Program-made: the position numbers and the translations under genes
In this document: positions 1 to 10,909 of the stretch, in pieces
Numbering within the stretch: the stretch's first letter is position 1
Layout of the letters: every line of letters begins with the position of its first letter
Assembly: GCA_021844725.1 (NCBI GenBank)
Contig: JAKBSX010000040.1
Coordinates: forward strand, 1 to 10,909
Length of the DNA stretch: 10,909 nt
Direction of reading: 5' to 3'
DNA from: Actinomycetes bacterium
GTDB taxonomy: Bacteria; Actinomycetota; Acidimicrobiia; Acidimicrobiales; Acidimicrobiaceae
Notes under the pieces: generated by a model
What the model saw: only the letters and a program-made list of their open reading frames with translations
Databases searched by the model: none
Told to the model about the DNA's origin: nothing

Positions 1-1588
1 GGACAGCGAGCTGATATCTGGCATAGGTGAGGTTGTCGATGATATCGAAGTTTTCTGGACTCGCAAGGCGATCCCCGAGATCGTTGGGTCCACCAACGTA
101 TTCAAGTGGTTCAGGAACTCTCTTAGGGAAAGAAAACTCAGACCCGTCAGGGAACTTCATCATGATCCTGTTCGTTACGGGATCATGCTCTCCGTACTGC
201 GTCTCAAGGAATTTCCGGGTTCGCCGCACCAGGAACTGACTAAGGAGTCGTTGCCAGTCCTCGCTGTACCTGGACTGCTCAAAAGCTGCAAGCGAGGTCA
301 GGCGTCCGTTGGTTCGTTGAGCAAGTTTGATCTCACCGATATGTTCGATCAATCGTTCCGGCCGAATGCCCAGGTCCTGATCTTTCTCAATCTTGAGAGC
401 AATCTGGCCTCCGATGTCGCGGTGATCTGCGTTATACATTGTGGCCGTGATGAGCACCAATTTGGAATCGTTCAATTGAATGTAGTCATGGATAACTTCC
501 CAGTCGATTCTCGACCGATGCCGCAGGTTGTGAGATTCGTCAATCATCACGAGCTTGTAGCGCCGAAGGGAACTGAGCTCGCGCGACACCATGCTCAAAC
601 TTAGAACTTTACCAGGGATGTCATATGTCTGAAGGTACTCATCCCAGGTTTCGACCATATTCTTCGGGCAGAGGACAAGAACACTTTCCCCGGTTGTCGC
701 TGCAATTGCCGATGCCGTCATGGTTTTACCGAGACCCACAACATCGCCAATGATGACGAGTCCTTGGCGTTCAAGGATTCGGCATGCGACTCGAACTGCA
801 CTTTCTTGGTGAGGCAGTAACACATTTCGAAACTGTATAGGGATATCCAGATTTATGCCACTTCGAGCATCATGTGAGAGTTCGTAGGCGATTTTGAGAT
901 GAACGAGTCGAGGATTAGGTGGAATCTCTCGAGCCCAGGAATTCTCGATAACTTCAATCAAAAGATTTGTAATATCGATTGAGTACTCATCGTTCCAATG
1001 ATTGTCGAACCAGTCAGCAAGCATCCAAGTCGTTGCATCATCAGTCTCTTCAAGATTGAGTTCACCCTGGCCGCTCAACCCTGCGGAGGTCAAATTTGAT
1101 GATCCAATCGTTGCTTGGAACCCCTTAAGTCCCGTCGCGGCATGGCAAACGTACAACTTTGCATGTAGTGGTGTTCGGGCTGCAAATTTAACTGCAACTC
1201 GTCCCAACTGAAGGTCTTCCTTGAGATGCCTAAGTCCCGCTAGGTCATTATTTGTGGGGGCACCCCATGTCAACTGGGTTGCGAACGCCGATACGGCTCG
1301 CTGTGCCATCAAGACTGCCTGTGGAAGGTCAATCCCATTTGTCGACCGATTCGAGAGTCGGTACTCGTTACGAATTTCACTTTCGCCAACTATCGCCATG
1401 CCAATCAGGAGGCGCACGCGTGGATTTTCGGATTCATGAGTTTCCATAGAAAGAATCGAATCTCGGATCCTGCGCCATCCACGCAGGTTGAAATAACCGA
1501 CGCATACGTCAAGTTGCTTACACTCTGGAAGCGTCTCCTCGAGCCGCTGCTCAAGTGATACTTTCTGGTTGTCGATTATTCGACTCAT
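1..1588 (-). CDS. PLD-like domain fused to SNF2/DEAH helicase (3' end outside window)
   Basis: I translated the minus strand from ATG at 1588-1586; the frame stays open for 529 codons to the window edge, so the C-terminal half is missing. Residues 1 to about 200 look like a phospholipase-D-type nuclease half: LHAKLYV (141-147, H142 and K144) and IGSSNLT (161-167, N165) match the HxK...GSxN signature. A superfamily 2 helicase follows: a PHQ motif (259-261), Walker A GDVVGLGKT (281-289), DEAH-type box DESH (350-353), motif III TAT (381-383) and QFLVRRTRK (451-459), typical of SNF2/HepA-like enzymes. PLD-helicase fusions are known from restriction and phage-defence loci; an ATP-driven DNA translocase with nuclease or DNA-binding activity is the likely role. 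The start lies 85 nt after a small upstream gene. A GAGG lies about 12 nt before the ATG and an AAGG directly abuts it, so the ribosome site is not ideal. The domain call is firm; the biological role is inferred. Confidence 0.88.
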   Translation of the reverse strand, partial: MSRIIDNQKVSLEQRLEETLPECKQLDVCVGYFNLRGWRRIRDSILSMETHESENPRVRLLIGMAIVGESEIRNEYRLSNRSTNGIDLPQAVLMAQRAVSAFATQLTWGAPTNNDLAGLRHLKEDLQLGRVAVKFAARTPLHAKLYVCHAATGLKGFQATIGSSNLTSAGLSGQGELNLEETDDATTWMLADWFDNHWNDEYSIDITNLLIEVIENSWAREIPPNPRLVHLKIAYELSHDARSGINLDIPIQFRNVLLPHQESAVRVACRILERQGLVIIGDVVGLGKTMTASAIAATTGESVLVLCPKNMVETWDEYLQTYDIPGKVLSLSMVSRELSSLRRYKLVMIDESHNLRHRSRIDWEVIHDYIQLNDSKLVLITATMYNADHRDIGGQIALKIEKDQDLGIRPERLIEHIGEIKLAQRTNGRLTSLAAFEQSRYSEDWQRLLSQFLVRRTRKFLETQYGEHDPVTNRIMMKFPDGSEFSFPKRVPEPLEYVGGPNDLGDRLASPENFDIIDNLTYARYQLAV

Positions 1589-1673
1589 CCTTGAAAGGTA
1601 CCTCTCAAAATAGAAATTCCTTGGCGAGTTGCCTCTTTACAATTTGATTTGCCGACGAGGTATACCATGGATC

Positions 1674-1832
1674 TCAAAGGTGAGTCCGGTCCCATCTAGA
1701 CCATGGAACATTTAGGGTCTTTAGCGCTGCCTGCACTTCTGGAGAGAACGCACCAGCTTTCACATCCTTGTGGTTTATCATGTGCTGACGGGCAACAAAT
1801 GCTCCGCTTGCGAAAACTAGACTGATGATCAC
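1674..1832 (-). CDS. Small protein with hydrophobic N-terminus, 52 aa
   Basis: A GTG start follows a strong ribosome site (GGAGGGG, then CATC, then GTG). The product is 52 residues: a hydrophobic N-terminus (MIISLVFASGAFVA) that could be a membrane anchor or uncleaved signal, then a soluble tail containing HKDVKAGAFSPEVQAALKTL and ending PWSRWDRTHL. The frame is also open upstream and encodes WVKSYEKWRG just before the GTG, so the natural start could be further upstream, though I see no ATG there in this frame. It lies between the TQTCDI-motif gene (137 nt upstream) and the PLD-helicase gene (85 nt downstream) on the same strand, so it may belong to the same unit. I do not recognise the family. 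Confidence 0.5.
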   Translation of the reverse strand: MIISLVFASGAFVARQHMINHKDVKAGAFSPEVQAALKTLNVPWSRWDRTHL

Positions 1833-1952
1833 GATGCCCCTCCACTTTTCATATGACTTTACCCAGTTTACATTAAGGTTAAACGGGGAAGGGTAAATTC
1901 ATATAAGTAGCGCTGTGATAGTAGGTAGGAATTGGAGGCTGATTGTTGGGGT

Positions 1953-1965
1953 GTCTACCGTAGAC
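1953..1965. other. Perfect short inverted repeat after the three-gene operon
   Basis: GTCTAC and GTAGAC flank a single C, just beyond the stop codon of the TQTCDI-motif gene. The loop would be tight and no T run follows on the minus strand, so a classical terminator is unlikely. It could be a protein-binding site or a weak RNA hairpin. Confidence 0.3.
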
Positions 1966-1969
1966 TAAT

Positions 1970-2953
1970 TTAGTTGCGTGACAAGTTGTCTAGATCAAGC
2001 TTAGGCTCCAACCAAGAACGAAAAATGGGGTATTCAGAAGCGCTTTCAGGAAAAGCCCCCACTATACGAACGCGTCCTTGATTGTCTACTGTACACTTCT
2101 TGTACCAACACTCCACCAACAAATGCCACAGAAAAGACCGTTCTGATGGCTCTCCAGTTGATTGTAAATATTTTGCAATTTTTTCTATCTTGTCATTAGC
2201 ATGATAGTTATTCAGTTGAGAGATCTTTTCAGACACCCCGTACTCATCTCCCTCAATTGGTGGAAGCGTATCCGGGTCTATTATGAAGACTAACTCGATC
2301 TCAAGTGGAACCGAATACCAAGATTTTTCTTTAGGTTTCCTTGCCCGTATTTCTTTCACTTGGCCGATCAATATAGATTCTGCTCCGCTGCCGTTGCGTT
2401 TGTCACGAAAACGTTCTCGCAATGGTTTAATTGCAACATCAAAACCATCAGGAAAGGCAAAACGACTCTTGCTTCGAGCAACTGCGTTTGCAAATTCGGC
2501 CTTATCATTGTCGTCGTGACAGCCGGGAATGGGGTTCCCTAAATGTGCCAACACAACTTTTTCCATAGTGGAACAGATATTAAGGTCAGCGAATTTATCT
2601 TTGCCAAGTCCAGGCAGAGGTGCGAAGCGCGCAGAATGACCGGCAGCAGCTTCGTTGCGAATGGGTCCACTGAGTTCAACAACTGGAGCCACTTGTACAA
2701 AAGGCCAGGGATCTCTTCCTCCATAAGAAGGCTTCCTAATATCACAAGTTTGCGTCACTACTACGATGAGGTCTTGGTTGACGATTGTTGCTCCAATGCC
2801 AATGGCACCTAGATCAGACGTAGGCTTGGTAAATGGATTGTCTCTGTCGGCTAGCCAAACAACTGGTCCACGAACTGTATCTCCCTGGCTCCAGGCTTGC
2901 ATTAAGCGATCGGTTTCATTGACTAACTCGGCTTTCGGCCGCCAAACCTCCAC
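1970..2953 (-). CDS. Unrecognised protein with TQTCDI motif, third gene of the TIGR04255 operon
   Basis: The 327-residue product starts at GTG (2953), with GAGG five bases upstream inside the end of the preceding gene; only 2 nt separate the two genes, so they are surely co-transcribed. The N-terminal third has a hydrophobic strand followed by a Cys-Asp motif (VVVTQTCDI, about 64-72), then PFVQVAPVVEL (84-94). Similar T/SQTCDI...VAPV patterns occur, from memory, in uncharacterised bacterial proteins. The C-terminal half is more polar, with a KEIRARKPKEK segment and a Trp/Cys-containing tail (LLVECWYKKC). No transmembrane segment, signal peptide, Walker or recognised nuclease motif is seen. 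Two-gene linkage to a helix-turn-helix protein and a TIGR04255-like protein suggests the three act together, possibly in defence. Function unknown. Confidence 0.85.
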   Translation of the reverse strand: MEVWRPKAELVNETDRLMQAWSQGDTVRGPVVWLADRDNPFTKPTSDLGAIGIGATIVNQDLIVVVTQTCDIRKPSYGGRDPWPFVQVAPVVELSGPIRNEAAAGHSARFAPLPGLGKDKFADLNICSTMEKVVLAHLGNPIPGCHDDNDKAEFANAVARSKSRFAFPDGFDVAIKPLRERFRDKRNGSGAESILIGQVKEIRARKPKEKSWYSVPLEIELVFIIDPDTLPPIEGDEYGVSEKISQLNNYHANDKIEKIAKYLQSTGEPSERSFLWHLLVECWYKKCTVDNQGRVRIVGAFPESASEYPIFRSWLEPKLDLDNLSRN

Positions 2954-2955
2954 AA

Positions 2956-3582
2956 CTACCTCATAATAGATTTAAACTCACTGAATTTATCGTTGGAATT
3001 GGTACCCTCCGGAATTCCAACCCCAGAATCCATTTCCCTTAGCTCAGTAAGAGTTGGTTCCCTGGTATTTCCTGCCTTGGTGCCAGCAGAATACACTTCA
3101 GCTACCATAAATGCGTACAGAGAAACCCCTTTACTGTCAACCCTGAATAAGGCCGCTCTAGTGTCGTTTGGCCCTGTGGTCCCCAGGCTTGTTATCAGCT
3201 GGCGAATGTTACGAAGACGCGACTCACTTACAGGCGACAGATTCCCACCCTCAACCCAAAAGTGTACGGCCCTGCGAGTCACTCCAAATAACTGAGCTAT
3301 TTGTTCCCAGGTCAAGCCTGTTGACTGTTTAAGGTCGCAGATTTGCTTCGAAAATTTCAAATCCGACGACTCGCTATCATGGGTCAGCGGGTCAGATAGC
3401 CACGAAAACTCCTCGCTCGTGAAGTCTTCTTGAGGGAAATAGCTAACTGGATCCAAACCTATAATGCTAAATGTATAGCTGCTCCTAATCACAAAGAATG
3501 TTTTTTCGACATCCGTATCAGTGCCTAACCATCCGGTTTGAGTTGTCGTTGAATTCATCTTGTTTTGTTCTTCAACAAACAT
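2956..3582 (-). CDS. Helix-turn-helix protein, middle gene of the TIGR04255 operon
   Basis: A central XRE-like helix-turn-helix is visible: KQSTGLTWEQIAQLFGVTRR followed by AVHFWVEG, about residues 85-112 from this start. This fits a DNA-binding protein that might autoregulate the operon. The flanks (first ~75 and last ~75 residues) match nothing I recognise. I chose ATG at 3582 because a GGAG lies 9 nt upstream; the frame also has ATG at 3597, giving 213 residues, and ATG at 3558. With the chosen start it overlaps the TIGR04255-like gene by 11 nt, which suggests translational coupling. The stop lies 2 nt before the next start. At about 208 residues it is longer than a simple XRE repressor, so the flanking parts may bind a partner or ligand. 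Gene call firm; regulatory role inferred. Confidence 0.83.
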   Translation of the reverse strand: MFVEEQNKMNSTTTQTGWLGTDTDVEKTFFVIRSSYTFSIIGLDPVSYFPQEDFTSEEFSWLSDPLTHDSESSDLKFSKQICDLKQSTGLTWEQIAQLFGVTRRAVHFWVEGGNLSPVSESRLRNIRQLITSLGTTGPNDTRAALFRVDSKGVSLYAFMVAEVYSAGTKAGNTREPTLTELREMDSGVGIPEGTNSNDKFSEFKSIMR

Positions 3583-4378
3583 TGCTCTTTGCTCCATGCT
3601 CTGACAAAAAATTGTCTGTGACTATTCCACGGAAAAACGCGTACGCGTATTCAGCAGCCCTTCGACTATCCGAGAGTGACTCATCAACTGAAAATGAAGA
3701 TTTCTCCTCCGAGAAGACATCTATATCCAAAACCCAACTCTCCTCGTCAACGGCATCTACTCCTGGAACAATCACAGCGTTAGGCGGCAATTTACCCCAG
3801 CTGGCCTTGAGCTGCAAATTGTTAATTCGATAGTGGGATTGAGTAACATTTGCTACAAGTTCGATTCCCAACGGATTTGTTTGTTGTGTAAGTCCAACGG
3901 CGTTTGGTTTTATCCATCTTCCTAGTTCCTTTGTCAAATTTGGACCCATCAGCCGATTAATATAACGAATACCAATTCGATCTTTAACCGCAGGTGCAGG
4001 GTCTAGAGATTCTAGGGAAGATAGCACGAAATGCCATTTGTCTAGGAAGTCATCGCGAGAATGGTAGTCGGTCGTTTCTAAAGCCACGAAATCATGGGCC
4101 AACGTGACAGACCAAGTTGTAGAAGCATTTGAAAGTCTCCATAGCGTTGCGGGAGATCCACCAAATTGAACCCCAGGCGCAAGAGAAAACGCCAGACGAT
4201 TTTCTGCACGCATTACTGGGTAATGAACTCTAAGACTCTCCTGAAATTTTTGCACGCCACCCAAAGTATCTATTTTTGCGATTACGGGAAACCTCACCTG
4301 AGCGATCACTTTTACCAACGGCGAGCTGTCCAAGTGAACTTCAGAGACGGGGTCTCCAGCAAATGGACTATCAGTCAC
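3572..4378 (-). CDS. TIGR04255-family-like protein, first gene of three-gene operon
   Basis: The 268-residue product starts at GTG (4378), seven bases after a strong GGAGGAAG site. The pattern matches what I remember of the sporadically distributed TIGR04255 family: an N-terminal SPLVKVIAQVRFP block (19-31), a mid segment ending DFVALETTDYHSRDDFL, then RIGIRYINRL (134-143), and a C-terminal helix with FFRGIVTDNFL. The family has no established biochemical function; its patchy distribution and habit of sitting in variable loci suggest a role in defence or conflict. It heads the operon below a good promoter and its stop overlaps the start of the helix-turn-helix gene. No membrane or signal segment is apparent. 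Family assignment is by recall of motifs, not by a search. Confidence 0.8.
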   Translation of the reverse strand: MTDSPFAGDPVSEVHLDSSPLVKVIAQVRFPVIAKIDTLGGVQKFQESLRVHYPVMRAENRLAFSLAPGVQFGGSPATLWRLSNASTTWSVTLAHDFVALETTDYHSRDDFLDKWHFVLSSLESLDPAPAVKDRIGIRYINRLMGPNLTKELGRWIKPNAVGLTQQTNPLGIELVANVTQSHYRINNLQLKASWGKLPPNAVIVPGVDAVDEESWVLDIDVFSEEKSSFSVDESLSDSRRAAEYAYAFFRGIVTDNFLSEHGAKSNVC

Positions 4379-4408
4379 ATTTCTTCCTCCACTTCACACT
4401 CTACTACA

Positions 4409-4437
4409 CATATACTGCTTCGCACCATAATTGTCAA
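4409..4437 (-). promoter_or_regulatory. Sigma-70-type promoter of the TIGR04255 operon
   Basis: On the minus strand a perfect -35 TTGACA (4437-4432) is followed after exactly 17 bp by TATATG (4414-4409) as -10. The expected transcription start falls near 4402, leaving a leader of about 24 nt that contains the GGAGGAAG ribosome site of the first gene. Confidence 0.65.
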
Positions 4438-4552
4438 TTTGCAGCCCAAATAAAGTGAGCATCGAATAACCTTTTTTGAGACCTGAGTCGTAAAGGTTTC
4501 AGGATTATCAATACGTTGTAAATTAAAATGGACTCAGGTACCATATATTAAG

Positions 4553-4583
4553 TTTTTCGATATCCATTTCTTTTTCGATATCC
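4553..4583. repeat. 13-bp direct repeat, 18-bp period
   Basis: TTTTTCGATATCC occurs at 4553-4565 and again at 4571-4583. Each copy contains the palindrome CGATATCG-like core GATATC. It could be a tandem binding site or a simple local duplication. Confidence 0.45.
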
Positions 4584-4720
4584 CACAGTTTGTGGAAAGA
4601 TCTTCAACAGATCTCTTTCTCGCACGTTAGCGCTTTCGATCTGCAAGGGTTGTTGTATCGCCATTGACTGATGGACAATTGCGTTATCAAAAAGCCTGTT
4701 GCGTATAAGACCGGGAGGTT

Positions 4721-4749
4721 GATAGCCCAATTTCCATAATGGGGCTATC
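4721..4749. other. 8-bp perfect hairpin downstream of the antitoxin gene
   Basis: GATAGCCC (4721-4728) pairs perfectly with GGGCTATC (4742-4749) across a 13-nt loop, beginning 15 nt beyond the antitoxin stop codon. Its position suits a transcription terminator or mRNA-stabilising structure of the toxin-antitoxin operon, but no T run follows on either strand, so an intrinsic terminator is not proven. Confidence 0.4.
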
Positions 4750-4764
4750 GAGGGTCATGAAGAC

Positions 4765-5046
4765 TTACGCCGATTCTAACTCCACGTGAACCTGGTGACC
4801 GGTAGCTGTGGCAATATTTACCAATGCATCGAGGGAGAAACGCGATACTCGTCCACGTAGAAGGTCGTTCATCCGTGGCTGAGTAACCCCGCAATGTTTA
4901 GCAGCTTCTGCTTGTGTCCATCCGCTTTCTGTCACGATAGCTGCAATTTTCTGCATAAGTTCTGCTCGTGCCCGGAGATTTGCTGCTTGTTCTGGCGTAT
5001 CCGCAATTGCATCCCACACGCTTTCGAAATTATCGGTCTTTGTCAT
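4765..5046 (-). CDS. HigA-like XRE antitoxin
   Basis: The 93-residue product has a helix-turn-helix of the XRE type (GWTQAEAAKHCGVTQPRMND, 42-61), followed by LLRGRVSRFSLDALVNIATATG, the usual pattern of antitoxins paired with HigB/Gp49-type toxins. It would neutralise the toxin and repress the shared promoter at 5376-5404. The ATG at 5046 lies immediately downstream of the toxin gene, preceded by GGAGGT (spacing about 5 nt). If the toxin frame were restored, the toxin stop would fall at 5032-5030 and the two genes would overlap by 17 nt, a normal arrangement for these pairs. It appears complete and undamaged. Confidence 0.92.
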   Translation of the reverse strand: MTKTDNFESVWDAIADTPEQAANLRARAELMQKIAAIVTESGWTQAEAAKHCGVTQPRMNDLLRGRVSRFSLDALVNIATATGHQVHVELESA

Positions 5047-5369
5047 CTTTACCTCCCATCAGTTCCTTGAACCGTTTCTTGGCAATCTCGATGTCTCGAA
5101 CAGATGTGGCTTGTGTCTTTTTCGCAAAAAACATGAAGAACCACCACTCTGTCGCTAAGGCGAGCAGGGTAAATAACTCGATATGCACCCGAGGCATCTC
5201 GTATTCTTATTTCTTCGACACCCTTGCCAACTGAGGGCATCGGCTTGAAGTCATCGGGCTGTTGGCCATGCTGCACCTTGTCTATTTGGTAGCCAGCATC
5301 CGTCCGAACGTCTTCGGGAAAGTCTCGCAGGCACTTCAGCGAATCGCCGAGAAATTGTACGGGTTTCAC
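5030..5369 (-). pseudogene. HigB/RelE-superfamily toxin, frameshifted near the C-terminus
   Basis: The first ~85 residues are a textbook HigB/Gp49-like toxin: start MKPVQFLGDS, then KPMPSVGKGVEEIRIRD, GAYRVIYPARL and VVVLHVF. These toxins are translation-dependent mRNA interferases. After LHV the family expects an F-x-K-K-T-Q run and a basic helix. In the current frame the tail reads instead CEKDTSHICSRHRD and stops at 5049. Dropping one T from the run of six (plus-strand A's at 5126-5131) restores HVFAKKTQATSVRDIEIA and a basic end KKRFKELMGG, ending at 5030 inside the antitoxin gene. So an insertion has removed the C-terminal part that normally carries catalytic residues, or the base call is wrong, or a +1 frameshift at the T run restores it. 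The GTG start has no Shine-Dalgarno site. Confidence 0.85.
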
Positions 5370-5375
5370 AATTCA

Positions 5376-5404
5376 AGTATATCAGTATGGATATAGTTTG
5401 TCGG
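5376..5404 (-). promoter_or_regulatory. Toxin-antitoxin promoter overlapping a palindromic operator
   Basis: On the minus strand a -35-like CCGACA (5404-5399), a 17-bp spacer and a good -10 TATACT (5381-5376) precede the toxin. The spacer contains a perfect inverted repeat: TATATC, six bases, GATATA (5378-5395), overlapping the -10. This is where a HigA-type repressor would bind. The start site is predicted about 7 nt after the -10, at or next to the GTG at 5369, so the toxin message may be leaderless. Confidence 0.6.
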
Positions 5405-5570
5405 TAGTTGACTTTAGCTTGTGGGAGTGTTTATTTCTTCTCGAGAAGCTGGTACTCGGCTTTATGTTGGATAATGGTTCGACCAAGAGGCACTGCCTTA
5501 CAGGTGCCAATCCCTCCAAGGTGAATGAACCTTTTGCGAAAAAAATACCGAAAGATCTCTCGCTACTTCT
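5405..5570. other. Divergent intergenic segment upstream of the ParA-like gene
   Basis: Frames on both strands are open (plus 5398-5604, minus 5582-5382), but neither has a good ribosome site or recognisable motifs. I see no gene here. Confidence 0.4.
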
Positions 5571-5588
5571 GTGCTGGTGCATACATAT
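5566..5588 (+). repeat. TGCATACATAT element, copy 1 (most divergent)
   Basis: The core TGCATACATAT is at 5578-5588, preceded by TTCTGTGCTGG. It sits 58 nt before the ATG of the ParA-like gene. In this copy the TCTG box is one base nearer to the core than in the other three. A promoter or operator role is plausible but unproven. Confidence 0.6.
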
Positions 5589-5646
5589 AGATAGGGAGAG
5601 TTAACCCTTTGACATCTGGAAATTGTGAGGATTAGGAGACTTTGTA

Positions 5647-6396
5647 ATGGGTAAAGTAGTTATTTTTTCGACCGGGGCAAAAGGTGGAGTTGGTAAATCC
5701 ACTCTTACCATTCTAATGGTAGAAGCACTTAGAGAAGCTGGGATTGAAGTAGCATGCGTTGTGGCAGACGAACGTTCCGCCATTACTGAGCGCAAGTATT
5801 TAGATAGCCCAATAACTCTGGTTGAGGCTGATCCCTTGAAGTTGGGGTACTCGGAAGCGATGTCTACTTTTAGAGGCATTGTGAGCGAATTGAAAGAGAA
5901 TTGGGTGGTAGTAGATACTTCGGCCACTTGGGCAAGGATATTTGATGATTCACCAGAAGAACTCGCCAGGTCGGATTGGGAAACGCGAGCAGTATGGTCT
6001 TTGGCGCTGATAGCTGATCGCGATACGTCTGGATCCGATGATGACGGATTATTTGAGTCAATAAAGAATGGAATGTTGTCTGCAATGGCTATAGAGAACA
6101 TAACCGTCGTTCTTCCGATGTTCCAACTTTCCTACCGCGGTCAACAGTTCTGGTATGACAAATCAAACGAACGAGCTGAAAAGTTGGGACTCAAGAAGAT
6201 TCAGATCAAGCGCATTCCTACGTTACTGATTCAAGCAATCCACCGTGACCGCAGTTCTATGACCGAACTAATCGCGAAGTCCAATGCCAAAGATCCGCTG
6301 ACGGGAGCCAACCTTCAATTGATTTGGCATTCCACCAAGGTATCTCTAGCGGAAACAATTTTGGCTGGAGCAAATCTTCGGCTCGGTTCGCGGTGA
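5647..6396 (+). CDS. ParA/MinD-like P-loop ATPase
   Basis: The 249-residue product begins VVIFSTGAKGGVGKST; the deviant Walker A KGGVGKST (12-19), with its signature lysine, defines the ParA/MinD superfamily. WVVVDTSATWA (about 85-95) occupies the place of the Walker A' / switch strand (normally VVDTP). The rest diverges from chromosomal Soj proteins, and it is closer in size and style to plasmid or conjugation-associated ATPases. It probably binds ATP, dimerises and positions a DNA or protein cargo. The start is well supported: AGGAG lies 8 nt upstream of ATG. No ParB-like partner follows; the next kilobase is decayed. A repeat copy lies 58 nt upstream. Superfamily firm, cargo unknown. Confidence 0.87.
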   Translation: MGKVVIFSTGAKGGVGKSTLTILMVEALREAGIEVACVVADERSAITERKYLDSPITLVEADPLKLGYSEAMSTFRGIVSELKENWVVVDTSATWARIFDDSPEELARSDWETRAVWSLALIADRDTSGSDDDGLFESIKNGMLSAMAIENITVVLPMFQLSYRGQQFWYDKSNERAEKLGLKKIQIKRIPTLLIQAIHRDRSSMTELIAKSNAKDPLTGANLQLIWHSTKVSLAETILAGANLRLGSR

Positions 6397-6779
6397 AGTT
6401 TCCTTAAGACCAATATGTTGGCGTGACCCAGTAGCCAAGGATCTGACCCAAAAAGCGTAAACCACGGGTGGCAGCGATTACAGAGAAATGAGCGGATAGT
6501 GTCGGCGTAGATTTTTGAAATCAAATGTTACGGGCTGGCGTGAGTCTTCATACACGAATAAGACGCACTGTGGTCGAACGAGGGCTGGACATTTTTGAAT
6601 GAAAACGAGTGGTGCAGATGGCTTTCATTCTGCTGCTGCTGGATAACTTAAAACCAGGAGCGCCACGCAGGTTGCAAAGTCGCCTTTCACATTATATATT
6701 TACATAGGTTTCTTGGTACTGTTCCAGGAAAAAGTCGCGAGTCCCGGAGGGCCAGCCCGAGGATACCAATAGGTATCGC
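6397..6779. other. Gene-free segment after the ParA-like gene
   Basis: The frame continuing after the ParA stop encodes PSSQGSDPKSVNHGWQ and similar short stretches, and a 29-codon plus-strand frame near 6620 encodes MAFILLLLDNLKPGAPRRL; neither has a clear ribosome site. These may be decayed coding sequence. I see no supportable gene. Confidence 0.4.
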
Positions 6780-6797
6780 CTAGGACGGGAACCGGGA
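6742..6797. other. Nested inverted repeats, potential structured RNA
   Basis: Three perfect stems nest around one centre: TCCCGG (6742-6747) with CCGGGA (6792-6797), CCCG (6756-6759) with CGGG (6786-6789), and GATACC (6762-6767) with GGTATC (6772-6777) around the loop AATA. No strong T run follows on either strand, so it is not a clear terminator. It could be a small RNA, a recombination or replication structure, or part of an element end. Confidence 0.4.
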
Positions 6798-6929
6798 TTT
6801 ACGCATTTCTTGAGTCGAACTCGAATTGATGCAGATAAGTTCCTTGATTACTCCTGCTTTTTGGAGTTGGTCGAAATAACCTGTGTCTTTAGTACCCTGA
6901 AGATACTCTCCAACGGCTGCAAAATAGCG
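6780..6929 (-). pseudogene. Decayed coding fragment, unidentified
   Basis: On the minus strand an open stretch between TGA (6932-6930) and TAG (6782-6780) encodes RYFAAVGEYLQGTKDTGYFD followed by QLQKAGVIKEL, a protein-like composition with no start codon of its own. It lies just downstream of the broken gene at 6986-7315 on the same strand and may be its distal part or a neighbour. Family unknown. Confidence 0.35.
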
Positions 6930-6985
6930 TCAGCCAACCAAAGAAGAGGTTAATCCTTTCCGTATCAGCCGTAGGTAAGCGACCC

Positions 6986-7315
6986 TTAAGAGCCAAGGTT
7001 ATTTAGCGCGTCAAGAATCGTTGCCTCATCGCGTGCATCTTCCCAGGAACCTCGAACCTCGAGCCTCAATACGAATATTCTTTGCCGATTTTTTGGGTCT
7101 AAAGATTTTTTGGGTCTAAAGATTTTTGATACCAACTTTTGTCATTGCAGCGACAATGCTTTCGACCTCGGACGGCTTCACGAATAGATCCTTGGTATCT
7201 CTACCAAACATTCCTCGAACTCTGGCCAGTCGACCTCGTCCTCTTCACCTGCCATAAATCCAAAGAACGCACTTCCACTCTAAATGTCCAGTGCAGCTAG
7301 TTGAAAGAACGAGAC
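6986..7315 (-). pseudogene. Unidentified minus-strand gene broken by frameshifts and a 17-bp duplication
   Basis: Three minus-strand frames join into one protein-like sequence. The first (from about 7255, ATG) reads MAGEEDEVDWPEFE; the second (ATG at 7211) reads MFGRDTKDLFVKPSEVESIV and AAMTKVGIK, then hits TAG; the third reads DPKNRQRIFVLRLEVRGSW followed by EDARDEATILDALNNLGS and a stop at 6986. The frame change between the second and third falls in the tandem repeat at 7087-7127, and another single-base shift lies near 7212-7220. An in-frame TAG also occurs upstream of the MAGEED segment. I do not recognise the family. The fragments are clearly more protein-like than the other frames, but this is judgement by eye. 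Confidence 0.45.
7087..7127. repeat. 17-bp tandem duplication with partial third copy
   Basis: GATTTTTTGGGTCTAAA occurs at 7087-7103 and 7104-7120, followed by a partial copy GATTTTT (7121-7127). Seventeen is not a multiple of three, so the duplication changes the frame of the minus-strand gene that it lies in. Confidence 0.8.
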
Positions 7316-7420
7316 TCAGCTGTGATCTAACTGTTTGGCCAACGCTTTTCCCCGGCTACTGCCCCCTCTTCAACACGTAAATCTCACCCCACATCGGACC
7401 TTTCCAACCATCAAATCAGA
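7316..7420. other. Short intergenic stretch upstream of repeat copy 2
   Basis: No coding frame with a plausible start or motif is visible. It leads into the repeat element and the AAA+ gene. Confidence 0.35.
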
Positions 7421-7447
7421 GATCTGTTTTCGGTGCATACATATCAA
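7421..7447 (+). repeat. TGCATACATAT element, copy 2
   Basis: GATCTGTTTTCGG (7421-7433) runs directly into TGCATACATAT (7434-7444) and CAAG? Only AA-rich sequence is shared after the core. The ATG of the AAA+ gene lies 47 nt downstream. The ATCTGTTT box and core have the same spacing as in copies 3 and 4. Confidence 0.7.
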
Positions 7448-7491
7448 GAGAAAGCATACGGCTTTTGCAAAGGGGAAGAAAGTTGGTGATC

Positions 7492-8853
7492 ATGGTGCAA
7501 GCACCAAATGAAAAGGTGAAGGATCTGAGCTGGCAACTAGAGCTGATGGTAAGCATCCATCCAGAAATAGTGCAGTCAACACTTACAGAACTTGAAATTC
7601 CAGTTGGTATGGGCGGTAATCCTTCAAGGGACGCCAAAACAATTCTTGAGTATTTTATAGGATCTGCATTTTCCGGACTTACGAAATTCTTGACCAGACT
7701 ATGTGATGTGCTTTCTGCAGATAAGCCAGATCCTATTATTGCCGGAATCATAAAATCTTGGCTGTCGTTGCTCTCATCGTTTTGCGATGAGGAGCTGTAT
7801 TCGATTGCTTTCGATGCTTATGACTTGTATAACGATTTATCTCAAAATGAGATCTTCGCTACGAATGCTTCTGGTGAGCGGGAAAGACATATAGAGCTGT
7901 TCAGTCCAAGGGCACTTTATAAATGTGGCCTCTCGCGTGGAACTCAGAACCCGGAGCGGGATGAATACGCCCGGCGAATTCTCGAAAAGCTCACCATCAG
8001 CGGACCGTATCGAAGATTCAGCTTCGAACCTGATGTGCTTCAAAAACTCGATCAGCTGAAGGAAAAGACCGCGAACTTCACTCACGTCATTGATTATGTA
8101 ATGGACGCAGTAAGTGTCTCGATCCATTACCACAAGCCCATCAAAATCACTCCGGTCATTTTGGTCGGAAGTCCCGGCATCGGCAAGTCATATTTTACAA
8201 ATCAACTATCTCAATGCCTCGGTGTTCCACTTCGTAAAGTAGCCATGGACAACCTTCAGATAGGAGCTGGTCTAAGCGGATCTTCTTATGTCTATTCCAA
8301 TACTGAAACCGGAGCAGTGTTCAAAGTTTTGACCGAGGAAGATCACATTAGCCCACTGATCATTTTGGATGAGATCGACAAAGCCGATGGCAACTTTGCT
8401 CACGGCGATCCACTCAGTCCACTTCATAACCTACTTGAGCCAATTTCTGCCAAGACGTTTGAAGATGCCAGCTTTGCTCTAACAATAGATGCCAGTCGGA
8501 TTATTTGGATAGCAACCGCCAACTCTATTGACAAAATTCCACCCGCAATACAGAGCCGATTTGAAATCTTCGAGATTTCCTCTCAAAGTCCAGATGCCCA
8601 GGCCGCGATACTTGGCTCAATCTGTGAAGAGCTAGCAAACGAATATCCAGAGATCGAATTTGGAAAAGACCTGCTTGGTATCCTTGCTCAAAGAACTCCG
8701 AGAGAACAGCGCCAGATGCTCCAACGTGCTTTGTCTCGGGCTATTCGTATCGGAGAGTCCAAAGTCACTGCCAAACACCTTGAACAAGCAGAGCCCGGCA
8801 GTTACTTGTCAAGTTCCATGAGACGTTTTGGGTTTAGAGGTAATCCTGGATAA
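7492..8853 (+). CDS. Lon-type AAA+ ATPase lacking a protease domain
   Basis: Numbering from this ATG, residues 1-215 form a helical, unrecognised N-terminal region. The AAA+ core follows: Walker A VGSPGIGKS (225-233), Walker B LIILDEIDKAD (289-299), GDPLSPLHNLLEP, sensor 1 IWIATANSID (338-347), an arginine-finger-like IQSRF (353-357) and a sensor-2 region TPREQRQMLQRALSRAI. The DEIDK...DP...LLE...TANS...IP order is that of Lon protease, but the product stops at 453 residues without the Ser-Lys peptidase domain, so it is a stand-alone remodeller or adaptor. ATG at 7492 is 15 nt from the only SD-like site (AGGGGA, 7471-7476); GTG at 7486 or TTG at 7483 has better spacing, so the start is uncertain by nine bases. 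Repeat copy 2 precedes it. Partner or substrate unknown. Confidence 0.9.
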   Translation: MVQAPNEKVKDLSWQLELMVSIHPEIVQSTLTELEIPVGMGGNPSRDAKTILEYFIGSAFSGLTKFLTRLCDVLSADKPDPIIAGIIKSWLSLLSSFCDEELYSIAFDAYDLYNDLSQNEIFATNASGERERHIELFSPRALYKCGLSRGTQNPERDEYARRILEKLTISGPYRRFSFEPDVLQKLDQLKEKTANFTHVIDYVMDAVSVSIHYHKPIKITPVILVGSPGIGKSYFTNQLSQCLGVPLRKVAMDNLQIGAGLSGSSYVYSNTETGAVFKVLTEEDHISPLIILDEIDKADGNFAHGDPLSPLHNLLEPISAKTFEDASFALTIDASRIIWIATANSIDKIPPAIQSRFEIFEISSQSPDAQAAILGSICEELANEYPEIEFGKDLLGILAQRTPREQRQMLQRALSRAIRIGESKVTAKHLEQAEPGSYLSSSMRRFGFRGNPG

Positions 8854-8891
8854 CCCAGGCAGATGATGCTTTTGTTTAGATCGATTTTCTA

Positions 8892-8920
8892 CACACGGCT
8901 GAGAGAACTAGCCAAGTGTG
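8892..8920. other. Bulged hairpin downstream of the AAA+ gene
   Basis: CACACGGCT (8892-8900) pairs with AGCC and GTGTG (8910-8913, 8916-8920) with an AA bulge and a 9-nt loop, 38 nt after the AAA+ stop. No T run follows; a weak terminator or processing site is possible. Confidence 0.35.
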
Positions 8921-8958
8921 ATTGCTAGGCGAATCGCATTGGCATAATTTCGTTCGGA

Positions 8959-9105
8959 ATGATCTTCGGAGCAATCTGGTCAGGGGTTCTGATGCTCAGT
9001 TGCTTGGGTTTGCTTAGTCGGATGCGAAAGGTTCTTTTAGGGAAAAGATCTGTTTGGCCTGCATACATATTAAGTAACAAGCGAGTGCAGGAGGAAACCA
9101 GATGA
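8959..9105 (+). CDS. Possible small hydrophobic protein, 48 aa
   Basis: An ATG at 8959 opens 48 codons: a hydrophobic segment (MIFGAIWSGVLMLSCLGLL) followed by a basic stretch (SRMRKVLLGKRS), the layout of a one-pass membrane peptide. Its TGA overlaps the ATG of the next gene (ATGA, 9102-9105). The same frame upstream holds ATG at 8863 and 21 codons (MMLLFRSIFYTRLRELAKCD) ended by TAG at 8926, so this may be a longer gene with an amber stop. Against it: no good ribosome site at 8959, and it contains repeat copy 3. I regard it as tentative. Confidence 0.3.
   Translation: MIFGAIWSGVLMLSCLGLLSRMRKVLLGKRSVWPAYILSNKRVQEETR
9047..9074 (+). repeat. TGCATACATAT element, copy 3
   Basis: GATCTGTTTGGCC (9047-9059) precedes TGCATACATAT (9060-9070) and TAAG. 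The ATG of the first small gene lies 31 nt downstream of the core. Confidence 0.7.
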
Positions 9106-9263
9106 CAAACGATCTGAAGGCATCACCAGACCTTACCGGACGAGAGGCAAAGTGCGATATCTGCAAATCAGTGCAGCCAAGCTCGAAGAGCCTTGCTTAC
9201 TTCGGATATAAGCCCGATAAGGAATTCGATGGTTTTTACTGTGGATGTATTGGGTGGGACTGA
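9102..9263 (+). CDS. Small CxxC zinc-binding-like protein, 53 aa
   Basis: The ATG at 9102 follows a strong ribosome site (AGGAGG, spacing 6 nt). The 53-residue product has CDIC (about 23-26) and CGC near the C-terminus (FYCGCIGWD), giving two cysteine pairs that could bind one zinc ion as in small zinc ribbons. Its TGA overlaps the next gene's ATG by one base (TGATG), which implies translational coupling. Repeat copy 3 lies 31 nt upstream. Small proteins like this are common in phage and plasmid modules; I do not recognise a specific family. Confidence 0.7.
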   Translation: MTNDLKASPDLTGREAKCDICKSVQPSSKSLAYFGYKPDKEFDGFYCGCIGWD

Positions 9264-9565
9264 TGACAACTACTACAGAGAAAACTTCGGCAATACAAGA
9301 TAGTTTTAGCCGATACGCACTACTTGAGAGCGAAAATGCAAAGCTCAAGCACCAGCTCGAAGTTGAGGGGTTAGTCAATCAGACTTACAAAATAGCCGCA
9401 GAGAAGGCTTCTTGTGAACTTGAGAAGCTACGCAAACTCATTAGCGAGATCGATTCGCTTCACGAGCCGTGTCATGAGTCGATGATATATTGCGAAGACT
9501 GTGGCGAAGAGTTTCCCTGTCAAACCAGGATTCTTATCGATAACAGGGAGGAGTCAGGGTTATGA
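9263..9565 (+). CDS. Coiled-coil protein with C-terminal cysteine cluster, 100 aa
   Basis: I chose ATG at 9263 because it overlaps the preceding stop (TGATG); the frame also has ATG at 9245, six codons earlier. Residues about 16-70 form a heptad-rich helix (ALLESENAKLKHQLEVEGLV, then ...ELEKLRKLISEIDSL), likely a coiled coil. The C-terminus carries CxxC-xxxxx-C (YCEDCGEEFPCQT), plus an upstream Cys and His pair (HEPCHES), which could bind zinc. It is co-transcribed with the preceding small gene. Its stop overlaps an ATG (9562) of the decayed HNH gene, so these three were probably one operon. Function unknown. Confidence 0.72.
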   Translation: MTTTTEKTSAIQDSFSRYALLESENAKLKHQLEVEGLVNQTYKIAAEKASCELEKLRKLISEIDSLHEPCHESMIYCEDCGEEFPCQTRILIDNREESGL

Positions 9566-9854
9566 AAGCACTAACGGCATCGGAAGTAGCCCGCTTTTGA
9601 AGTTAAGTTGACGTGGGTTGGCCTGACTAATGCTGGGCTTATCGAGGCGCTGTCAATTCTAATGGTTATGAGGCGTTCAAACTCAGCGGTTTGATGCTGA
9701 ACGCATCTCGTGTTGCTTATAATATCGCTTTTCCTGAGGTCGATCTTGGGCGCTCTGATTTTGTTTGTCATCATTGCGACAACCCCAGATGTTGTAATTT
9801 CAATCATCTTTTTTTGGGGATGCTGAAATCAACACGAGGAACATGAGGTTCTAA
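9562..9854 (+). pseudogene. HNH endonuclease, decayed
   Basis: ATG at 9562 overlaps the previous stop. In a single frame the sequence reads MKALTASEVARF, then TGA (9598), TAA (9604) and TAA (9628), then CWAYRGAVNSNGYEAFKL, and later VCHHCDNPRCCNFNHLFLG. This is the CW-x-W/Y-x-G...NGYG..F...HxCDNPxCvNPxHLFLG pattern of small HNH homing-type endonucleases. Each stop sits where a family member would plausibly have W, K and E, so each is one substitution from sense. After HLFLG the frame is lost in the T/G run at 9810-9819; one extra base gives DAEINTRNMRF, matching the usual T..DN..DM. The metal-binding His and Cys pairs are still present, but no intact product can be made with the standard code. 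Confidence 0.72.
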
Positions 9855-10075
9855 AGCTTCTAAAGGTTGACTGGGGTCAAGGCTTTGGTCTTGCCCGTCC
9901 TAAGCCGATAGGCCATCTTGAGTCTCTCTTTGCCTAGGTTGGCAGGAGATCGCCTCCTGCAAAGTTTGAGCTTTGCGTTCTAGATCAACTCGACTGATCA
10001 AGTAGCTGGCTTGACCTTAGCGCTATTGCTGCCAACGAAGACGCTGGTCTTCCCAAAATAAACTCTTATAGGTAA
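9827..10075 (+). pseudogene. Fragment resembling the C-terminal end of an EAL domain
   Basis: One plus-strand frame, overlapping the end of the HNH remnant, reads NQHEEHEVLKLLKVDWGQGF followed by GLARPKPIGHLESLFA, then TAG (9935), then FELCVLDQLD, TGA near 9995, then SSSWLDLSAIAANEDAGLPK and a TAA at 10073. The E..vL..L.VDWGQGFGLARPKP stretch resembles the last strand and helix of EAL-domain cyclic-di-GMP phosphodiesterases (usually G.D..QGY...RP.P). No start or catalytic EAL segment is present. It is at most the tail of a gene, with two in-frame stops. The assignment rests on one short motif. Confidence 0.38.
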
Positions 10076-10081
10076 GGGAGC

Positions 10082-10441
10082 TTACTGTGGAGATACTGTA
10101 TTTGAATGTACCACCAGTGTGCCGGAAATAATCTGTGAAGTTGGAGCTGGCTTGGCTGCTGAGTATGTTGTGCTGTTTGCAAAATAAGTTACCCCGAGGC
10201 TAATGCCCAGAGCCATCACGATACTAGAGCACCAAATACGCAGGTGTCGTCGATTATTTTTGTGGGCATAAAGTTCCTGGTTCAACCTGCTGGCAGTTGC
10301 CCCGATAATTTGGCTGCTTGAGGGAACTTCGCTCCGAAAGTTGCGGGAGTTTACTCCATATCCACTTCTCGACATGAGTGAGTTGAACTCAGACTCTGTA
10401 AGAACTTCAATTTCTTTTTCGCCAACTCTCACTGCCGTCAT
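10082..10441 (-). CDS. Small single-pass membrane protein, 119 aa
   Basis: I prefer ATG at 10441 because AAGGA lies six bases upstream of it; ATG at 10447 would add two residues but has AAGGA directly abutting. The N-terminal ~75 residues are polar (VGEKEIEVLTESEFNSLMSR...), followed by a basic run (HKNNRRHLR) and one hydrophobic segment (IWCSSIVMALGISLGVTYFA), then a Ser/Thr/Pro-rich tail. Basic residues before the segment suggest N-in, C-out topology with the tail outside. It is convergent with the decayed plus-strand sequence. I do not recognise a family. Confidence 0.6.
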   Translation of the reverse strand: MTAVRVGEKEIEVLTESEFNSLMSRSGYGVNSRNFRSEVPSSSQIIGATASRLNQELYAHKNNRRHLRIWCSSIVMALGISLGVTYFANSTTYSAAKPAPTSQIISGTLVVHSNTVSPQ

Positions 10442-10668
10442 TGCCATTCCTTCTTCGTTGCGTTCGTATATTTATTATCGGCTCAGGCCGTGGAAAACTT
10501 TAGAAGAAATTATTTACTCGAAATTTGGCTCTCGGAAATGCACTTTGACGGAATCTCGCAACTCTATTGACTATTGACCGTTCAAGTTGGTTGGTCTCTA
10601 ATAATCGTTCTTAGCCTCATGTCGCCCTGTCCTGGCACCCAATTTCAGTTATGGGTAATTCAAAGCGC

Positions 10669-10682
10669 TGAAGTTAACTTCA
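10669..10682. promoter_or_regulatory. 14-bp perfect palindrome, possible operator
   Basis: TGAAGTTAACTTCA is its own reverse complement and lies 43 nt before the core of repeat copy 4. It has no loop, so it suits dimeric protein binding better than an RNA hairpin. Confidence 0.4.
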
Positions 10683-10712
10683 CTTTTACCTTTTCAGTTC
10701 ACACGAAGGTGA

Positions 10713-10739
10713 CATCTGTTTTGGGTGCATACATATTAA
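10713..10739 (+). repeat. TGCATACATAT element, copy 4
   Basis: CATCTGTTTTGGG (10713-10725) precedes TGCATACATAT (10726-10736) and TAA. Spacing equals copies 2 and 3. No plus-strand gene follows before the minus-strand partial gene, so a simple promoter role does not fit this copy unless its target is antisense or a small RNA. Confidence 0.65.
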
Positions 10740-10787
10740 TTGACTAATTAGATCTAGAGAAACTTCATTCAATCCTGCCCATTTCAG

Positions 10788-10909
10788 CTACTTGGTTGGG
10801 GCCGTAAGACACCAGCTACCTAGTCCTGAGGCTGGATCAAGGCTTTTGAAAGATTCTATGATTTCCAAGCCTTCGCCAACGTACCGCTGGCCAGGAATGA
10901 CCATCGTTG
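10788..10909 (-). CDS. C-terminal end of an unidentified minus-strand protein (partial)
   Basis: The minus strand from the right window edge is open for 39 residues to TAG (10790-10788): MVIPGQRYVGEGLEIIESF and KSLDPASGLGSWCLTAPTK. Composition and the absence of stops look like a real protein end; the start lies outside the window. The opposite strand is also open over this stretch, so the strand is not certain. Family not recognised. Confidence 0.4.
   Translation of the reverse strand, partial: TMVIPGQRYVGEGLEIIESFKSLDPASGLGSWCLTAPTK

Follow-up and report, generated by a model that had tools for sequence, protein, structure and literature searches.

Introduction

Three-part toxin-antitoxin systems with a function in defence include retrons, among them those with PtuAB-type effectors, and toxin-antitoxin-chaperone systems. 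CmdTAC likewise combines a toxin with a dedicated antitoxin and a third component that exerts control. The operon studied in this work would share this kind of arrangement and occupies positions 1970..4437 on the minus strand of a window of 10,909 nucleotides (contig JAKBSX010000040.1, positions 1 to 10,909). It encodes a TIGR04255 family protein (TIG), a helix-turn-helix (HTH) protein and a protein carrying the motif TQTCDI (TQ). On balance, the three genes probably form a tripartite, toxin-antitoxin-like cassette that is mobile and most likely serves abortive-infection-type defence.

The closest relatives in anatomy are MazEF, Kid-Kis (PemIK) and CcdAB, which resemble the cassette in the predicted fold of TQ residues 13-166, in being small operons with a DNA-binding partner and in occurring on plasmids as well as chromosomes. 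TQ, however, has no PemK/MazF Pfam match, does not conserve the MazF Arg and Thr and bears a long C-terminal extension, the HTH partner is of a different kind, and TIG is present as an added first gene. The cassette probably acts in the manner of known toxin-antitoxin and abortive-infection systems, but by the features tested it is not a MazEF system. One TIG operon contains an HNH third gene related to the retron effector PtuB, but neither a reverse transcriptase nor a non-coding RNA nor a SecB-like chaperone was seen here, and TIG is dissimilar in sequence from the corresponding parts of CmdTAC, retrons and toxin-antitoxin-chaperone systems. In Panacea, a single family (PanA) pairs with many unrelated toxin folds, and the authors suggest that the constant domain acts as a sensor (PMC10440598). 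The combination of one constant family, here TIG, with many toxin folds is shared, but TIG is a separate gene and not an antitoxin domain, and it belongs to a three-gene operon. Panacea itself, which we take to be PF13274, was not listed in the Pfam scan of the window proteins. TIGR04255 is an NCBIfam subfamily designated 'sporadic' that has no described function and is not named in the papers of the searched library.

Organization and conservation of the operon

The three open reading frames, all on the minus strand, were found exactly where a preliminary description of this DNA had placed them. TIG (3572..4378, 268 amino acids) starts with GTG, with GGAGG immediately 5', and its proposed membership in TIGR04255 is clear (124 bits, curated cut-off 30). 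The middle gene (2956..3597) encodes 213 amino acids, or 208 from an internal ATG at 3582, and overlaps TIG by 26 nucleotides from the first ATG and by 11 from the internal one. The overlap of 11 nucleotides described earlier is borne out if translation starts at 3582, the position to which the first residue of a 96% identical homologue (P0028) corresponds. The stop codon of the HTH gene and the start of TQ (1970..2953, 327 amino acids) are separated by two nucleotides, again as described. A promoter had also been proposed 5' of TIG (4409..4437, minus strand), and TTGACA (4437-4432), N17 and TATATG (4414-4409) are indeed literally present. This promoter is nevertheless unproven, because TATATG matches the -10 hexamer at only four of six positions, with the final T missing, the consensus promoter scan did not list the site, and promoter-like sites between 1700 and 4600 were not in excess in that scan (4 versus a shuffled mean of 4.1).

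The three genes are a real conserved operon unit that is present in unrelated bacteria and on plasmids. A protein search yielded 27 homologues of TQ and six of the HTH protein, and 54 loci were compared, comprising 46 loci in species genomes, two in IMG/VR contigs and five in plasmid records, all retrieved via TQ, plus one locus retrieved via TIG. The conserved adjacency that the preliminary description had anticipated was found: TIG, HTH and TQ genes follow each other in this order on one strand at 46 of the 54 loci, while HTH plus TQ were present at four and TQ only was scored at another four; two of these eight exceptional loci (L026 and L029) start at a contig end. At L047 (1427-4039) TIG and HTH genes are present, but about 2.6 kb separate HTH from TQ and a TQ-like remnant is found at 1335-1544, as if the module had been interrupted by an insertion. 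Protein distance matrices from 45 loci, spanning seven phyla according to the record titles, correlate at 0.895 (TIG-HTH), 0.906 (TIG-TQ) and 0.922 (HTH-TQ), values that none of 2000 permutations reached. HTH and TQ genes are accordingly an adjacent, co-inherited pair as expected of a type II toxin-antitoxin system. In the tree of TQ proteins, the Pseudomonadota require six changes, three of them forced by well supported branches, and some transfer is therefore likely. Distribution is patchy, as TQ was detected in eight and TIGR04255 in 31 of 396 sampled genomes of the window's phylum.

The TQ scans matched six plasmid records, of which five were opened; with a Sinorhizobium plasmid added through TIG, six plasmids carry the cassette. 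On plasmids the cassette is free-standing, surrounded by transfer, integrase, prophage or symbiosis genes. The fact that most of the six adjoin transfer, integrase or transposase genes, together with the MazF/CcdB fold of TQ, which is that of the plasmid toxins Kid and CcdB, would fit an addiction module, that is a three-part toxin-antitoxin system that retains plasmids or islands and has no direct antiviral role. We regard this as unlikely, since many copies reside on chromosomes and are old (13 cyanobacterial sequences form one side of a branch in the TQ tree), the cassette precedes restriction-type defence genes in the window's genome, and a constant third gene exceeds what addiction needs.

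TQ as candidate effector

TQ did not match any Pfam, NCBIfam or PADLOC model at an E value of 1, and thus does not belong by sequence to the MazF/PemK family (PF02452). Its predicted structure (pLDDT 94.2) consists of a barrel domain and a long C-terminal extension, and the barrel (residues ~13-166; 2456..2917, minus strand) carries a PemK/CcdB-type, i.e. MazF/CcdB-type, toxin fold. Because of this fold in the model, TQ stands as the operon's best candidate for an effector, which supports the earlier proposal of a new effector or sensor. PIN and Kid/CcdB/PemK/MazF folds apparently serve as toxins only (PMC2701414). Within the TQTCDI motif (residues 67-72; 2738..2755, minus strand), Cys70 and Asp71 are invariant in 69 of 69 aligned sequences, and Gln68, Asp123, Lys132 and Arg164 are near-invariant among the relatives of TQ.

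The N-terminal domain of TQ has relatives in short TQ-type proteins (hhalign E 1.4e-13). A protein-database search yielded 1047 relatives of one of these, which is encoded behind a TIGR04255 gene (L209:2139-2681) and characterized by a 'QGD...TQxCDL' signature; all named relatives are hypothetical among the 120 matches listed. This short protein also shows a weak match to phrog_4575.

The HTH protein

The HTH protein matches HTH_23 and MerR weakly, below their curated cut-offs. Its helix-turn-helix block (residues ~91-127; 3217..3327, minus strand) is apparent both from the profile match and from the block LTWEQxAxLFxVxRRxxHFW, which is strongly conserved in 41 relatives. Recurrent TSxG-like motifs were noticed in the N-termini of the middle proteins (e.g. 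L042:9136-9960), and some of these proteins have a hydrophobic stretch preceding the HTH block. Because the similarity to mad1 (E 0.0017) covers only 24 HTH residues and the scan of ten window open reading frames listed none of the other mad genes, membership in the MADS system, which combines a Mad1 regulator with those genes, was rejected.

A middle gene for an HTH protein, as well as the position of several copies next to housekeeping or symbiosis genes, would also be compatible with an ordinary regulatory operon in which a regulator and two partners control metabolic or stress genes. Such an operon is very improbable, given that the three proteins matched no metabolic family in Pfam and NCBIfam searches, as the preliminary description requires of TQ and the HTH protein, that the cassette is patchily distributed and free-standing on plasmids, and that TQ has a toxin fold.

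TIGR04255 heads several kinds of three-gene operons

Genes behind TIGR04255 were read in the sample from the window's phylum, at other copies in further genomes and in Cyanobacteria, where the family is present in 21 of 194 genomes. The third gene at 32 distinct loci of the window's phylum is of the TQ type in nine cases (including L083, which is cut, and L087, which is weak), putatively MazF-like (HPC/SHDC) in six, type C in five, HEPN in two and HicA-like in one, with four others and five loci lacking a third gene or ending with the contig. TQ is also carried by L078, L081 and L090; L081 had been entered as lacking a third gene, and L078 and L090, which duplicated earlier loci, were left out of the count. 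At 24 cyanobacterial loci, eight third genes are of the TQ type, three each of types C, D and E, and one each of type F, HEPN and PIN, while four are others. The PIN and HEPN assignments rest on matches of 6.8e-11 and 4.7e-8, respectively; the HNH third protein matches PF01844 (2.2e-5) and retron HNH families below their cut-offs. Families C, E and D recur behind TIGR04255 (L228, L238, L247, L241, L248, L250, L233, L234, L240), and none of four scanned proteins of these types (L233, L241, L238, L216) reached a Pfam cut-off. On a Rhizobium plasmid (L066:5183-8762), a TIGR04255 gene lies beside genes for multiubiquitin, a ThiF-type adenylyltransferase and DUF6527, with no TQ gene.

Middle and third genes vary in step, as computed for 116 loci that were mostly collected through TQ and therefore do not represent independent samples. 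Of 62 long TQ genes, 60 come with the HTH middle family, as do all four HPC and both SHDC genes; the family also occurs at two further loci with a mis-called third open reading frame. Another middle family goes with all eight type C, three type F and five single third genes, whereas HEPN (3/3), type D (3/3) and type E (4/5) have middle families of their own, and nine short TQ genes pair with six different ones. Since middle and third genes change together under one TIG family, the natural reading is that the middle gene provides a toxin-specific antitoxin and that TIG is common to all. This anatomy, toxin-antitoxin-like and with exchangeable toxin-like third genes behind TIGR04255, goes beyond what had been proposed earlier.

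In TIG, which was modelled with a pLDDT of 91.4, about 180 residues matched the catalytic domains of phosphagen kinases. This match is the basis of an alternative in which TIG would be the catalytic part and TQ a non-toxic binding or sensing barrel, an arrangement that we consider quite unlikely.

Proposed mechanism

For the defence cassette favoured here, we infer that TQ is the toxic effector. Its beta barrel, of the MazF/CcdB type and continued by a C-terminal extension, would have a site of its own (Gln68, Cys70, Asp71, Asp123, Lys132, Arg164) instead of the MazF Arg/Thr pair, and its target is probably RNA or some other component of translation or replication. As the specific antitoxin of TQ, the HTH protein would neutralise it and repress the operon, whereas TIG would be the shared third part that senses infection or licenses neutralisation. 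Perturbation of TIG would free TQ, and growth would stop. TQ appears to have the fold of an RNA-cutting toxin without the known active site, and the cassette may therefore be an uncharacterised antiviral switch. More tentatively, TIGR04255 could be the hub of polymorphic three-gene immune cassettes that swap antitoxin-toxin blocks (MazF-like, PIN, HEPN, HNH and unnamed) behind a constant sensor, with TQ and short TQ proteins (>1000 relatives) forming a new class of MazF-fold effectors with a Cys-Asp based active site; we would put this somewhat below an even chance.

Several observations weigh against the proposed defence cassette. TIG is absent from five of the 54 loci (L006, L021, L035, L043, L044), has no clear fold relative, its structural matches being at background level only, and stands alone in some cases, with no convincing partner at L071, L072, L073 and L082 at least. 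Foldseek alone gave no match of TQ to the PDB at an E value of 0.001 (MazF, E 0.33), the VIA list is a mere re-alignment of Foldseek's own candidates, and a profile comparison with 32 MazF proteins is non-significant by itself (hhalign P 0.037, probability 1.4%). The catalytic residues of MazF are Arg25 and Thr48 in B. cereus/B. subtilis numbering (PMC7354611). They are present in 29 (Arg) and 25 (Thr) of the 32 MazF proteins; at the TQ positions paired with them in the hhalign comparison, Arg/Lys occurs in 20 of 69 and Thr in at most two of 69 sequences, and ribonuclease activity can therefore not be assumed. Finally, neighbours of 18 loci match 117 PADLOC models versus 40 in control stretches (148 open reading frames each), a difference to which few proteins contribute and which does not prove enrichment. 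The earlier interpretation, partly supported overall, also placed the operon in a defence island: known defence genes are present in the window's genome, but their enrichment beside the 18 other loci was not shown.

If the proposal is correct, TIGR04255, a curated family without a function, would serve for recognition in a modular toxin-antitoxin-like system of wide occurrence. The 1047 relatives of one short TQ, a large set of hypothetical proteins, would then become a testable class of effectors that have kept the MazF barrel and replaced its active site. TQ, TQ plus HTH protein, and TQ plus HTH protein plus TIG can be directly compared in the laboratory.

Genomic setting

The helicase neighbour noted in the preliminary description is a PLD-SNF2 helicase (PADLOC HKD+Snf2, 9.5e-37) that starts 381 nucleotides after TQ on the same strand; its 5' part lies within the window (2..1588, minus strand) and the full protein on the contig has 1107 amino acids. 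Past the window come two further genes (L227:12330-17046), the first for a type IIG restriction-methyltransferase (4.5e-146), the second for a Schlafen/AlbA protein (PF04326, 4.1e-15). Judged by these matches, the helicase-side genes are a restriction-type defence operon.

Farther away, an AAA ATPase akin to the ATPase part of Lon is encoded on the plus strand (7465-8853; TIGR00763, 4.4e-27, positions 296-507 of 795), and the open reading frame ends without a match to the Lon protease. Immediately upstream of the operon lies a toxin-antitoxin-like pair (4765-5369), in which a Gp49-like toxin gene (5049-5369, minus strand; PF05973) comes first and an HTH_37 antitoxin-like gene (4765-5046, minus strand; PF13744) second. 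Divergent from this pair, a ParA/CbiA-like ATPase of 249 amino acids is encoded at 5647-6396 on the plus strand (PF01656, 7.4e-7).
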